Shown here in pieces: positions 1-62,326 of a stretch of 64,000 nt of DNA. Below the pieces are notes generated by a model. It worked only from the letters and a program-made list of their open reading frames with translations, was not told the origin of the DNA and searched no databases. Source of the stretch: Mesorhizobium sp. YM1C-6-2. GTDB lineage: Bacteria; Pseudomonadota; Alphaproteobacteria; Rhizobiales; Rhizobiaceae. The translations under genes and the position numbers were made by a program. The stretch covers positions 62,001-126,000 of the forward strand of contig NZ_RCIZ01000010.1 of NCBI RefSeq assembly GCF_003666685.1. The letters are read 5' to 3'. Within the stretch, counting starts at the first letter, position 1; every line of letters begins with the position of its first letter.

Positions 1-214
1 TCAGCGCGGGAATGGATCGCGCAAGGTTCTCGCCGGCCAGAGTGAGGGATAGTCCGCCATCGCGCCGCGATGCCAGCTTCAGCGCCAGCGTGCTCTCGAA
101 CCGCTCGAAGGCATCAGCGACGCTCGAAGGCGGCCGGCCGAGCAGGACGGCTGCGCCGCGCACCGAGCTTTCCTGCATCACCGCAAGTGCCGTTGCCAGC
201 GTGGCTGTGTCCAT
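1..214 (-). CDS. LysR-family transcriptional regulator, N-terminal part (runs off left edge)
   Basis: Reading the minus strand from an ATG at 214 gives 71 codons with no stop before the window edge. The peptide starts MDTATLATALAVMQES, continues SSVRGAAVLLGRPPSSVADAF and reaches LTLAGENLARSIPAL, which is the spacing of a LysR winged helix-turn-helix (hydrophobic helix 1, S-x-x-AA-x-x-L turn, P-S-S-V recognition helix, then a wing ending L-T-x-A-G). Only this DNA-binding domain is visible; the ligand-binding domain lies outside. The gene is divergent from the ammonia-lyase-like gene starting at 321, the usual arrangement for a LysR protein controlling its neighbour. The recognition region is somewhat atypical (no Q-P-A/S-V-S), so the family call rests on overall pattern. 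Confidence 0.75.
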   Translation of the reverse strand, partial: MDTATLATALAVMQESSVRGAAVLLGRPPSSVADAFERFESTLALKLASRRDGGLSLTLAGENLARSIPAL

Positions 215-320: not shown

Positions 321-1817
321 ATGACGCCGATGATCGTTTCCGTGGGCATGAAGCCGCTGACAGTCGACGATGTCGGCGCCATCGCCGACCGCAGGGCGAT
401 CGTCACCCTGTCGACCGATGGCCGCGAGGCGGTCCGCAAGGCGCGCGCCGTGGTCGACCGGCTGGTGGATGGGAAGATCCCCGCTTATGGCATCACGACA
501 GGCGTGGGCAGCCAGAAGGACTTCGCCGTCGATCCCGAGGCGATCGCTCGTTACAACGATCTCATGATCACCGCGCATGCGACGCTTGCGCCCGGCCGCA
601 ACGCGCCGCCGCAGGTGGTGCGTGCGGCGCTCGCCATCCAGCTCTCGCTCTTTGCCCGCGGACGGTCCGGGGTTCGTCTCGAACTGGTCGAGAGCCTCCT
701 GGCGCGGTTGCGGGTCGACGACCTGCCGGGCGCAAGGCTCGGCATGTCCGTGGGGGCCTCCGACATCGTCGCGATGAGCCAGATGGCCGTGCCGCTGATC
801 GGACGGGACGGCGCTCAGGCAGGCGGGCATGGCCCGGAGCCGCTCGACGGCCTTGCTGCCAAGGAGGCGGTGTCGCTGCTCAATTCCAACAGCCTGATGC
901 TGGCCGAGGGCGTTCTGGCCGTCCGTGAGCTGCGCGCGTTGCTCGACGCGGCCACCCTGGCCGGCGCCATGTCGATGGAGGGCCTGCGTGGCAACCTGCG
1001 ATCCTGGAGCGAGAAGGTCGACCTGGCGCGGGGCCAGCCCGGCCAGATCCGTGCGGGCAAGGCGCTGAGGGCGGCGCTGGCCAACAGCAGGCTCTGGCAG
1101 CCAGGCGAGGCGCGCTTCCTGCAGGACCCGCTGAGTTTCCGCTGCATCCCGCAGATCCATGGCGCCGCCGAGGCGGCCTACGACTTTGCCCATGCGATCT
1201 TCGAGACGGAACTGGGCGCGGCCTGCGACAATCCGATGATCGACACCGCCACCGGTGATTTCATCTCGCACGGAAACATGGAGACCACGGCCTGCGCACT
1301 CGCCATGGACACGCTTCGCCAGGCGGTCGCCAAGGTGATCGAGGCTGCCGGGCAGCGCATTCACAAGATTCAGTGGCCGGGTTTCACCGGCCTGCCGACC
1401 AGCCTCGCTGCGGAGCCCGGTGCCATCGGCGGCGTTCAGTTCCTCAATTTCGGCCATATCGCCGGCGCCACTGTCGGCGCGGTGCGCCAGGCCGCCCATC
1501 CCGCCATGCTCAACTATTCCGGACAGCTCGACGACGGGGTCGAGGATGTCGCGGGCAACGCGCCGCAGTCGGTCGCCGAGACGGTGCGCATGCTCGAGCC
1601 GGCCTGGACGGTGGTCGCCATCGAGGCCGCATGCGCGGTCTGGGCCATTCATCGCCGCGCCCTTGACGTCGCGACCCTGGGCGATGGACTGAGGCCGGTT
1701 GTGGAACGCATCCTGCCCGCGCTGCCGATCGGCACGGAAGGCCAGAAGGTCTTCGATCTCGGCGAGATCGTCGGGATGCTGAAGGCGGAGTTCGGCGTCA
1801 CCGGGTCGTTGGCGTGA
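321..1817 (+). CDS. Histidine/aromatic ammonia-lyase (HAL/PAL) family protein with altered MIO motif
   Basis: 498 aa from the ATG at 321, where HAL-family similarity begins (the frame stays open upstream to the window edge, but that part overlaps the LysR gene). Family features: AYGITTGVG with the active-site Tyr56 segment, SVGAS at 143-147, LLNSNS at 186-191, SFRCIPQ, a CDNPMID segment and a VEDVAGN segment. HAL/PAL enzymes deaminate His, Phe or Tyr through an MIO group built from Ala-Ser-Gly. Here the tripeptide is Ala146-Ser147-Asp148: the Gly is missing and Asp, normally next, takes its place. NGT is changed to NSN, and the EDHV loop has also lost a residue. It ends 7 bp before ubiD and is probably co-transcribed with it. 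It may be a lyase with a non-standard prosthetic group, a member with another activity, or inactive. Confidence 0.85.
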   Translation: MTPMIVSVGMKPLTVDDVGAIADRRAIVTLSTDGREAVRKARAVVDRLVDGKIPAYGITTGVGSQKDFAVDPEAIARYNDLMITAHATLAPGRNAPPQVVRAALAIQLSLFARGRSGVRLELVESLLARLRVDDLPGARLGMSVGASDIVAMSQMAVPLIGRDGAQAGGHGPEPLDGLAAKEAVSLLNSNSLMLAEGVLAVRELRALLDAATLAGAMSMEGLRGNLRSWSEKVDLARGQPGQIRAGKALRAALANSRLWQPGEARFLQDPLSFRCIPQIHGAAEAAYDFAHAIFETELGAACDNPMIDTATGDFISHGNMETTACALAMDTLRQAVAKVIEAAGQRIHKIQWPGFTGLPTSLAAEPGAIGGVQFLNFGHIAGATVGAVRQAAHPAMLNYSGQLDDGVEDVAGNAPQSVAETVRMLEPAWTVVAIEAACAVWAIHRRALDVATLGDGLRPVVERILPALPIGTEGQKVFDLGEIVGMLKAEFGVTGSLA

Positions 1818-1824
1818 GGAAAGG

Positions 1825-3195
1825 ATGATGGCGGTAACGGACCAGAGCTTTCGCGGCGTCATCGAACGGCTCAAGGCTGCGGGCGATCTGCACCGCGTCG
1901 AGCGCGGCGTCGATCCACGCTTCGAGCTAGGAGCGGTGCTCTCCCTGCGCGACAGGGAGCAGCCGCAGCTTTTCACCGCGGTGAAGGGCCACGGCATGCC
2001 CGTCGTCGGCAACATCATGAATTCCCGGGAACGCGTCGCGAGACTGCTCGGCGTGGAGAAACCACGCCTCCACCAGGTGATCCTCGAGGCACTGGACAGG
2101 CCTATCCAGCCTGTCCTCGTCGAAAAGGCGCCGGTGCAGGAGGTCGTGCATGAGAACGATATCGACCTTGGCCGCATCCTTCCCGTGCCGACCTGGTTCG
2201 AACACGAAGCCGCCCCCTATGTCACCGCCGGAGTGATTGTCGCCCGCGACCCCGAAACCGGGCGCAGGAATGTCTCGATCGCCAGGCTGCGCCTCGAGGG
2301 CGGCGGCCGCGTCATGGTCGGGATCGCCAAGAACCATCATCTCAACCTGCTGGCCGAGAAGGCACGCAGGCTCGGGCAGAAGCTGCCCATCGCGGTCGCG
2401 ATCGGCAATCACCCGGCCGTCCTGCTCGGTTCGCAGATGTATCTCGGGCTGGGCGACGACGAGTACGATGTCGTTGGCGGGTTGCTTGGCGAGCCGCTCG
2501 AACTCGTACGCTGCAGGACGGTACCGCTCGAAGTGCCCGCAGGCGCCGATATCGTCCTGGAAGGCCATATCGACAATGCCGACCCGATCGAGGAGGGCGA
2601 CGTATCCGAGTTCCACGGCTTCTATGTCCGCTATGGCGCCGGCACGGGAGGCGCCATCACCTGCGTCACTCATCGCCGTGACGCCGCGTACCAGGCAATC
2701 CTGCCCGGATACGCCGCCGAGCACTGCCTGCTCGGCGCGCTGGCGATCGAGGCGGTGGCTTGCCAGGCTTTGCAGCGGGCGATCCCGGCGGTGCGCCGGG
2801 TCTTGGTCACGGATGGCGGCATGGGCCGCTTGCATGCGATCATCAGCATGCACCGGCCGCGGCTCGGCGAAGGCAAGCGCGCCGTCATCCTGGCCATGGG
2901 CCAGGTCAATCTGTTCAAGCTGGTGACCGTCGTGGAGGACGACATCGATCCGGAGGATCCGACCGCGGTCGAGTGGTCTCTCGCTGCGCGTTTCCGCGGG
3001 CACGAGGACATGGTGGTTCTGCCGGGCATGAAGGCCGACCGCTGCGATCCCGTGCATGAAGACCTGACAGTCACCAAGATCGGTCTCGTCGCCTGCACCC
3101 GTCCCGGCGACGGCGACCGAGGCTCGCTCTCCGAATTCGCCCGTGCCCCCGAGGATATCCTGTCGTCAGTTCGCGCGCAGCTTGCGGAGTATTGA
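1825..3195 (+). CDS. UbiD-family decarboxylase (prenylated-FMN dependent)
   Basis: 456 aa; ATG at 1825 behind GAGGAAAGG (a second ATG follows immediately). UbiD enzymes reversibly decarboxylate aromatic or alpha,beta-unsaturated acids using prenylated FMN and a metal. The family layout is intact: N-terminal mixed domain, the R-N-V-S-I-A-R prFMN-binding strand around 148-154, the split-barrel domain, and the EEGDVSEFHGFY segment where Glu257 and Glu262 match the catalytic acid pair; Arg154 matches the catalytic Arg. It sits 7 bp behind the ammonia-lyase-like gene. A lyase making a cinnamate- or urocanate-like acid followed by its decarboxylation is a reasonable reading, but the substrate is unknown. 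prFMN must come from a UbiX encoded elsewhere because the adjacent ubiX is broken. Confidence 0.9.
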   Translation: MMAVTDQSFRGVIERLKAAGDLHRVERGVDPRFELGAVLSLRDREQPQLFTAVKGHGMPVVGNIMNSRERVARLLGVEKPRLHQVILEALDRPIQPVLVEKAPVQEVVHENDIDLGRILPVPTWFEHEAAPYVTAGVIVARDPETGRRNVSIARLRLEGGGRVMVGIAKNHHLNLLAEKARRLGQKLPIAVAIGNHPAVLLGSQMYLGLGDDEYDVVGGLLGEPLELVRCRTVPLEVPAGADIVLEGHIDNADPIEEGDVSEFHGFYVRYGAGTGGAITCVTHRRDAAYQAILPGYAAEHCLLGALAIEAVACQALQRAIPAVRRVLVTDGGMGRLHAIISMHRPRLGEGKRAVILAMGQVNLFKLVTVVEDDIDPEDPTAVEWSLAARFRGHEDMVVLPGMKADRCDPVHEDLTVTKIGLVACTRPGDGDRGSLSEFARAPEDILSSVRAQLAEY

Positions 3196-3197
3196 TC

Positions 3198-3489
3198 GTG
3201 ACGCCCCCACGGTCGGCGTCACCGGTGCATCGGGCTTCGACTGTGCAGTTGCCTTCTCAAGCTGTTGCATCAGCTAGATATCGAAACCCATCTCGTCGTA
3301 TCGCGTGCGGCTAGTACTCTTCCGCGAAACGCCACTGCATCTCGGCCACTGTCACAACATCCTCGGACTGACCGCGATGGGCGGCACCGTCATGCCGCCG
3401 GTTTCCGCTTTCTAGCCAAGGCCGAAAACGATCGAGGAAATGGTGACCTATCCCGTGGCGCGGGCGCGCCCGATCTCTCCGAGATTTGA
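3198..3489 (+). pseudogene. ubiX: Degraded ubiX (flavin prenyltransferase) remnant
   Basis: Directly downstream of ubiD, pieces of UbiX can be read in changing frames. Frame 2 at 3212 gives VGVTGASG, the UbiX N-terminal FMN-binding motif. Frame 1 from 3259 gives KLLHQLDIETHLVVSRAA, the next UbiX segment. Frame 2 from 3308 gives RLVLFRETPLHLGH and then a segment ending MPPVSAF, the C-terminal UbiX signature. A TAG at 3413 then replaces the usual Tyr before PRPKTIEEMV. Frame 1 finally gives APDLSEI and stops at 3489, like the normal ALDLFGI end. Between the second and third pieces some 75 residues of the family are missing, with the junction near 3303-3310. So there is at least one internal deletion, several frameshifts and a nonsense codon. 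It cannot encode an active enzyme. Confidence 0.8.
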
Positions 3490-3689: not shown

Positions 3690-3748
3690 GCGCGAGCCTA
3701 GCTCATCAACATGACTTGATCCTCAGCGATTTCGAAAGGCCAAACACA

Positions 3749-61617: not shown

Positions 61618-62326
61618 AGGCGCGCGCCTCCTCGCCGTTTCCCGCGTCGGCCAGCTTGCGGCGGACGAGGTTGAAGGAACGGGTTATGTCGTTCTTCAGC
61701 GCCTTCACCGCCTGCGCCCTGTCGCCGCGCTCCAGCGCCTCGATCAGCGCCCAGTGATGATGCGTGCCCGACATGTCGCGCAGCTCGTCATGGATCTGCG
61801 CGGCGGCGCGCACATAGGGGCCGGATTGCAGCCACAGGCTCTCGACGACAGGGATCAGCACCGCCGAGCCCGCCGCGCGATAGATGTGGAAGTGGAAGGC
61901 GTGGTTGAGCTCGGAGGTGCGGTGCGGCTTGTCCGGATCGTCTCCGGTGAAGGCCGCCTCGCATTCCCTGGTCAGTTCCCGCAACTTTCCGAAATCGTCC
62001 GAGGTGAGTGTTGGGAGTGCCAACGCCACCAGCTCGCCTTCGATCAGGCAGCGCGCGCGAGCGAGGTCGTCGAGTTTCTCGCGGGTGATGAGGGGCACGC
62101 GCACGGTGCGGTTGGGCATCGATTCGAGCGCCTGCTCGGAAACCAGCCGGCCGAGCGCCTCGCGCACCGGCATGGTGCTGGTCTGCAGGGTTTCGGCGAG
62201 CTCCTGCATGCGCAGCGAGGCGCCGGCGTCGAACATGCCGTGGATAAGCGAGCGGCGGAGTTCGGCGTAGACGCGGTCATGCAGCGTTTCGCGGCCGACC
62301 GGCGACAGGACGCCGTTCCGGGTCAC
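61610..62326 (-). CDS. GntR-family regulator, FCD subfamily
   Basis: 238 aa from a GTG at 62326 with GGGAGG upstream; the longer frame has no SD. Winged helix: ETLHDRVYAELRRSLIHGMFDAG, QELAETLQTSTMPVREALGRLV, RTVRVPLITREKL. FCD domain with ARCLIEGELVALAL, SELNHAFHFHIYRAAGS, HHHWALIEALERGD containing metal-type His. It is divergent from livG, and the palindrome at 62443-62454 lies between. It likely controls both the operon it heads and the livGF operon. Confidence 0.9.
   Translation of the reverse strand: MTRNGVLSPVGRETLHDRVYAELRRSLIHGMFDAGASLRMQELAETLQTSTMPVREALGRLVSEQALESMPNRTVRVPLITREKLDDLARARCLIEGELVALALPTLTSDDFGKLRELTRECEAAFTGDDPDKPHRTSELNHAFHFHIYRAAGSAVLIPVVESLWLQSGPYVRAAAQIHDELRDMSGTHHHWALIEALERGDRAQAVKALKNDITRSFNLVRRKLADAGNGEEARAYG

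Follow-up and report, generated by a model that had tools for sequence, protein, structure and literature searches.

A conserved aromatic amino acid lyase homologue without the MIO-forming glycine, encoded beside UbiD, ErtD and ErtE genes in Mesorhizobium sp. YM1C-6-2

Background

What can an enzyme of the histidine and phenylalanine ammonia-lyase (HAL/PAL) fold still do once its gene has lost the glycine codon of the Ala-Ser-Gly (ASG) triad that forms the MIO cofactor? This question is raised by a gene of Mesorhizobium sp. YM1C-6-2, located in a stretch of 64,000 nucleotides (positions 62,001 to 126,000 of contig NZ_RCIZ01000010.1), hereafter the window; its product is referred to as P0001. 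A PAL unable to form MIO is reported to have practically lost the deamination of L-Phe (PMC3903478), and another MIO-deficient PAL is described as having lost the hydroamination of two aryl acrylates (PMC12535398). A MIO-independent route has been claimed for electron-poor substrates (PMC7247363), and was ruled out in the system of the second study (PMC12535398). A gene conserved without MIO is therefore unlikely to encode an ordinary ammonia-lyase. MIO-less lyases are already known in kind: ergothionase, which splits off trimethylamine, is reported to lack MIO (PMC13405746), and it was the only naturally MIO-less member that we found described in the open-access literature, while subscription literature might hold others. 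The present gene likewise separates the fold of HAL and PAL from their MIO cofactor, although the two are commonly regarded as one.

Results and Discussion

The glycine of the triad is missing and one active-site tyrosine is replaced

The reading frame of the lyase gene (Table 1) contains no internal stops over its 498 residues, and the PF00221 Lyase_aromatic profile matches residues 13-449 of P0001 with 322.4 bits (cut-off 27.3; E = 6.1e-96), which bears out an earlier, sequence-only reading of this DNA that had called it an ammonia-lyase homologue with an intact frame. The motif of P0001 is SVGASDIVAMSQ, with GCC TCC GAC as its codons in place of the triad. When P0001 was aligned with four ASG-type HALs, AS-D stood against ASGD; judging from this alignment, the Gly codon of the triad is deleted and the next Asp is retained, so that the replacement of Ala-Ser-Gly by Ala-Ser-Asp had been read correctly. 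No ASG occurs elsewhere in the whole translated protein, and this translation, together with the alignments, rules out an ASG hidden by a shifted alignment, a possibility that the same reading had raised. It had also pointed out the altered NGT and EDHV motifs, which are NSN (first Asn retained) and EDVA (Glu and Asp retained), respectively. Its statement that the active-site Tyr is kept holds for the Tyr of YGxTTG; the Tyr of QDPYS, in contrast, has become Leu (L271), which had been missed.

Table 1. Features of the left end of the window
Feature	Coordinates	Strand	Basis
LysR-type regulator start, divergent, two HTH_1 matches; remainder left of the window (L003:11024-12214)	1..214	-	Profile match
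MIO-less lyase, aromatic amino acid lyase family (P0001), 498 aa	321..1817	+	Translation, PF00221, structure matches
Ala-Ser-Asp codons, residues 146-148; Gly codon of Ala-Ser-Gly-Asp missing	756..764	+	Alignment
Leu271 codon, where the second active-site Tyr would be	1131..1133	+	Alignment
UbiD family decarboxylase, 7 bases behind the lyase	1825..3195	+	UbiD domains, nearest solved structures 6H6V/6H6X
ubiX remains, pieces in different frames; boundaries approximate	3196..3466	+	Match at 3311-3466, interrupted by one TAG

Among 16 aligned sequences, 12 of ASD/MSD type and four of ASG type, Ser147 and Asp148 are invariant, and the Gly column is empty in all 12 ASD/MSD-type rows. Tyr56, His86, Asn188, Arg274, Glu408 and Asp409 are invariant in the ASG and the ASG-less rows alike; the first five are presumably Tyr53, His83, Asn195, Arg283 and Glu414 of P. 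putida HAL, and the position of Leu271 we take to be that of Tyr280, the second active-site Tyr of the same enzyme.

P0001 has the fold of HutH and ergothionase

P0001 has the same fold as HutH (1B8F and its mutants), and Tyr56, His86, Asn188, Arg274 and Glu408 are common to it and the ASG-type HALs. Unlike HutH, it has no MIO triad, carries Leu for the second Tyr, and scores below the cut-off of the hutH equivalog profile (234.6 bits against 539.15). A PDB sequence search returned ergothionase 6S7J as the best match (6.2e-47; next best 5.5e-36). This enzyme is the ergothioneine trimethylamine-lyase of Treponema denticola. The AlphaFold2 model of P0001 has a mean pLDDT of 85.0 and a pTM of 0.89; pLDDT falls below 50 at loop residues 144-146, so the geometry of the loop cannot be read from it. 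With this model, Foldseek likewise placed 6S7J first (1.9e-25), narrowly above HAL 1B8F (5.2e-25), and in VIA-align 6S7J tied with HAL 1GKJ at Z 39.1 (for 6S7J, rmsd 2.5 over 474 residues), 1B8F having Z 38.7. Both ergothionase and P0001 lack the ASG triad and have LQDPLSFRC in place of VQDPYS, although they are only 26-27% identical and the triad is EGD in the former and ASD in the latter. The different electrophile that had been proposed for P0001 has no support: the sequence shows the electrophile and the second Tyr to be lost, which is the pattern of ergothionase, an enzyme described as MIO-less (PMC13405746).

Tyrosine and triad change together across the family

Homologues were gathered through their similarity to P0001 and its relatives; once duplicates, stop-containing frames and matches shorter than 900 bases had been excluded, 85 sequences remained, which are interrelated and so do not amount to 85 independent cases (the genes of L135 and L136 are not among them). 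ASG is absent in 68 of the 85, which, along with ergothionase, described as MIO-free (PMC13405746), makes the earlier statement that enzymes of the HAL/PAL fold all need MIO too strong. The Tyr of QDxY is kept in all 17 ASG sequences, and in the 68 ASG-less ones its position is occupied by Leu (66), Ile (one) or Val (one); this co-change provides a sequence rule separating MIO-less from MIO lyases.

A first tree was built from 66 rows of the collection (less than 88% mutual identity, at least 460 aa), and a second one with the long-branched L110_7635 and L018_1579 left out and the motif and Tyr columns removed. In the second tree, the 11 rows with (A/M/S)SD, written xSD below, fall on one side of a single branch with support 100/100. 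Other ASG-less branches carry AAD, AGD, TGD, (C/T/A)ADIG or GSxGYL. On the tree topology MIO needs two changes, but forcing the 14 MIO rows into one group lowers the likelihood by only 0.38 log units (p-AU 0.50), so that MIO may have been lost once or more often. The xSD rows and the T. denticola ergothionase are not grouped in the unconstrained tree; holding them together gave a p-AU of 0.0907, and holding the xSD rows with the ASG (MIO) lyases one of 0.07, neither grouping being rejected.

The GSxGYL branch is large, including L109:16224-17717, L071:9367-10929 and relatives. On an A. tumefaciens plasmid its gene occurs with an S-methyl-thiourocanate hydratase and an S-methyl thiohydantoin desulfurase, and in L071 it lies near an ASG lyase and apparent hut genes.

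The xSD clade is rare, scattered and conserved

All 18 relatives that are at least 43% identical to P0001 (L034-L045, L047-L050, L135 and L136, of which L042 and L043 are near-copies and L045 is a fragment) have (A/M/S)SD without the Gly; none of these close homologues carries the ASG that the sequence-only reading had named as evidence for a one-off mutation. A scan of genome contigs gave 13 loci, 12 with ASD or MSD and one, L046, with a normal ASG HAL. Across the order (397 genomes, E <= 1e-50), 14 genomes, the window's own among them, contained a match: ASD or SSD was found in relatives at 43-80% identity (G199, G235, G393 and G514), and AAD or MAD in matches at 32-36% identity. Across the class (E <= 1e-75), three of 385 genomes matched, including the window's own, and both new ones have GASD. 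Within the family, 128 of 151 genomes have some lyase match at E <= 0.001, of which, among the matches listed and the window's own gene aside, none exceeds 35% identity; the motif was examined in the fetched loci only. In plasmid records, each of the 855 with a lyase match is less than 60% identical to P0001, so there is no close plasmid ortholog among them. The xSD clade is therefore rare and scattered, and almost every named record with an xSD lyase belongs to the Alphaproteobacteria; Acetobacteraceae, Acidiphilium and Inquilinus are among them. We found no description of the clade, or of its partnership with UbiD (see below), in the open-access literature.

The ASD codons differ synonymously among seven orthologs, all of which have the motif. 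This recurrence in independent assemblies, together with the 100/100 clade, rules out a sequencing error or a recent single-strain mutation, to which we give a negligible probability. The dN/dS ratio of the lyase gene is 0.022 and 0.035 against two 93% orthologs (YN00), and 0.13-0.25 against the other five (NG86, there being no YN00 estimate for them), values that indicate strong purifying selection on the gene. A well-supported single clade of ASD type under such selection supports the earlier suggestion of a lineage with a different reaction. P0001 might instead be a catalytically dead relative kept for binding or regulation, since MIO and one catalytic Tyr are lost and the window's genome has a broken ubiX at this locus; the two low dN/dS values, the invariance of the remaining active-site residues and the recurrence of catabolic partner genes speak against this idea, which we regard as very improbable.

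The lyase gene lies with UbiD, ErtD and ErtE genes

The UbiD protein encoded behind the lyase matches the N-terminal, middle and C-terminal UbiD domains above the gathering score (187.3, 79.4 and 68.9 bits, respectively). In addition to the ubiX remains, the window's genome encodes elsewhere (G000:C13) a UbiX that exceeds the family cut-off and whose frame has no stops. Upstream of and divergent from the lyase gene are the LysR gene, whose start codon was inferred from homologue matches that begin at residue 75-76 of the long ORF, and genes for ErtD (783.6 bits, cut-off 600) and ErtE (586.2 bits, cut-off 520), which convert hydantoin-5-propionate to glutamate.

The group at 74% identity or more comprises eight loci (the window, L034-L038, L062 and L063), and within the stretches covered UbiD adjoins the lyase in seven of them and LysR is nearby in seven, L036 being the exception for both. 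ErtD is present in five, ErtE in four, and a near full-length UbiX match in five (L034, L035, L037, L038 and L062). G235 (L062) carries a single run of genes on one strand, in the order ErtD, lyase, UbiD, UbiX and ErtE-like (46%). None of the searched-for partners was found near the lyase in L036, L039, L040 or L135. The LysR relatives, with two HTH_1 domains in one protein, adjoin the lyase or ErtD in seven of the eight close loci.

The transporter nearest to the P0001 gene is of the sugar type and not of the betaine type. Its ABC genes start at 3716, and have no high-identity counterpart beside the lyase in related loci, only matches of 26-39% in L035, so that we do not count them as part of the system. 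A choline/betaine-type transporter is encoded near the lyase of L038, a 93% ortholog.

UbiD proteins 64-70% identical to that of the window occur on four plasmids, on which any lyase match is below 60% identity to P0001. On an Ensifer canadensis plasmid (L107), ErtD, ErtE, UbiD and UbiX genes stand together with no lyase near. On a Thalassospira marina plasmid (L106), the UbiD gene follows those for thiourocanate hydratase and thiohydantoin desulfurase; ErtD, ErtE and a TRAP transporter are encoded there too, and no lyase was found nearby, so that UbiD is part of a thiourocanate-type locus as well. UbiD thus goes with the ErtD/ErtE part of the route and not with this lyase alone. Furthermore, an ASG (MIO) lyase accompanies ErtD, ErtE, UbiD and UbiX in L125, L128 and L131, and hence these partners alone are no proof of a quaternary substrate. 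The ASG lyases of these three loci form a small branch of their own, and may serve a free-amino version of the same route. A highly divergent Lyase_aromatic gene on a plasmid of Rhizobium jaguaris (L110:7632-9080; GGAGEI, YQAPVSYR) adjoins ErtD-ErtE-UbiD-UbiX genes and those for a betaine-type transporter.

The UbiD partner points to a five-membered heteroaromatic acid

The nearest solved structures to the window's UbiD are 6H6V and 6H6X (279 bits), which we take to be furandicarboxylate decarboxylase HmfF. H297 of HmfF is reported to be key for furan-type substrates (PMC7976604). The His at position 296 of 6H6V, by our own count, is taken to be HmfF H297, and the UbiD sequences compared, eight in number, all have a His in the same alignment column. 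The window's UbiD thus resembles 6H6V/6H6X in keeping this substrate-site His and a further Arg, and differs from HmfF in having Ile for Arg304 (numbered by count). The comparison suggests a five-membered heteroaromatic acid as its substrate. Three roles were considered for UbiD, namely to decarboxylate the acrylate, to take a carboxylate off the ring or to remove a sulfonate, and none is well enough supported to be proposed.

With UbiD adjacent to the lyase in seven of the eight close loci, resembling heteroaromatic decarboxylases and keeping the His reported as key for furan-type substrates in HmfF (PMC7976604), P0001 could also catalyse a different reaction, such as an isomerisation, a hydration or another elimination, on a ring-carboxylated imidazole, UbiD acting on its substrate or its product. 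We hold this to be rather improbable, as Tyr56, Asn188, Arg274 and Glu408 are kept in all 16 aligned ASG and ASG-less sequences and no UbiD match was seen in the stretches covered at the hutU-linked loci described below.

Probably only the last two steps are shared with ergothioneine utilisation

Ergothionase being the best match of P0001, and ErtD and ErtE being encoded beside its gene, P0001 may be thought to be the organism's ergothionase, releasing trimethylamine from ergothioneine in a route finished by ErtD/ErtE. Ergothioneine-utilisation loci are indeed like the window locus in having ErtD and ErtE over the cut-off beside a lyase; the window locus is unlike them in having UbiD instead, in most close loci with UbiX. 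From 35 ErtD matches listed, 20 were fetched as L111-L130 (17 over the ErtD cut-off), and those of G000, G199 and G235 were examined in L003, L063 and L062. A DUF917 protein and a urocanate-hydratase relative are encoded in 14 of the 20 loci, a MIO-less lyase of (C/T/A)ADIG type in 11, and UbiD with an ASG lyase in two (L125 and L128). All three plasmid-locus hydratases scanned exceed an NCBIfam cut-off as thiourocanate (or S-methyl-thiourocanate) hydratase, and both plasmid-locus DUF917 proteins exceed that for thiohydantoin (or S-methyl thiohydantoin) desulfurase.

In the window's genome, the best thiourocanate hydratase match reaches 680.3 against a cut-off of 930, and the thiohydantoin desulfurase profile has no match. 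As in this genome (G000), neither enzyme is over the cut-off in G235, in G199 or in that of L034; both are below it in the genome of L038, which lacks HutU too and is maybe incomplete. The genomes of L035 and L037 (G539 and G541), on the other hand, combine the xSD-UbiD-UbiX locus with a second one of ergothioneine type, which has ErtD, ErtE, its own MIO-less lyase (CAD or CGD), and a hydratase and a desulfurase that pass their cut-offs. Given the missing thiourocanate genes and the genomes with both loci, the xSD enzyme of the window branch most likely serves a compound other than ergothioneine, with only the last two steps shared, and we consider P0001 unlikely to be an ergothionase.

A probable betaine lyase feeding UbiD and ErtD/ErtE

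From these comparisons, P0001 is probably a MIO-independent catabolic C-N lyase, and we propose that it eliminates trimethylamine from a histidine-derived betaine and feeds UbiD/UbiX and ErtD/ErtE. Binding of the betaine would resemble that of histidine by HAL. A base that is still present would remove the side-chain (beta) proton, and the leaving group, most likely trimethylamine, would depart from the alpha carbon to give a urocanate-type acrylate. Quaternary amines leave readily, which is a simple reason to expect elimination from P0001 as well; with no covalent activation required, the enzyme could have dispensed with MIO, through the Gly deletion, and with the second Tyr, through its change to Leu. 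Such a self-departing leaving group would explain several of the MIO-less branches. In the window branch, the lyase product would then pass to the UbiD/UbiX decarboxylase, and thereafter to ErtD and ErtE to yield L-glutamate. The UbiD-linked branch points to a catabolic route that most likely starts from a compound other than ergothioneine.

More broadly, and with somewhat less than even confidence, the whole xSD clade can be proposed as a new family of MIO-independent histidine-betaine lyases, consisting of a hercynine-to-urocanate sub-branch and the UbiD/ErtD/ErtE route. In the latter, a quaternary imidazole, probably with an extra ring carboxylate, would lose its amine without MIO, followed by prFMN-dependent decarboxylation by UbiD and conversion to glutamate by ErtD/ErtE, with no sulfur step. 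The occurrence of UbiD without this lyase, and the lack of a betaine transporter at some hutU-linked loci, count slightly against both the proposal for P0001 and that for the clade; the broken local ubiX and the sugar type of the nearest transporter also speak against the former.

A sub-branch linked to hutU

The xSD gene lies directly 3' of hutU in five loci (L042, L043, L064, L065 and L136, the first two being near-copies), four of which have a separate normal ASG HutH, while L065 is cut at the contig end. L042 and L064 also encode a sarcosine-oxidase-like protein and an ABC transporter of the choline/betaine type. The transporters near the lyases of L038 and L042, with a permease over the TIGR03416 cut-off, have homologues in L043 and L064, and no betaine permease match was found in the L065 and L136 loci. 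Because the gene follows hutU in histidine operons, the product of this sister sub-branch is probably urocanate and its substrate would then be hercynine; for a second, MIO-less urocanate-making enzyme beside HutH, hercynine is the best-fitting substrate. The gene order suggests that these enzymes are hercynine lyases, a clear prediction for this branch.

Public plasmid records label some ASG-less genes as histidine ammonia-lyase (L108 and L109, the latter as hutH for its GSxGYL gene), and histidine catabolism is consequently over-called. hutU and hutH are also nearby in L041 and L044. L041, from a record named Mycobacterium sp. KBS0706, has the motif and the order lyase, hutU, hutH like L044 of Inquilinus limosus, and the record may be misnamed.
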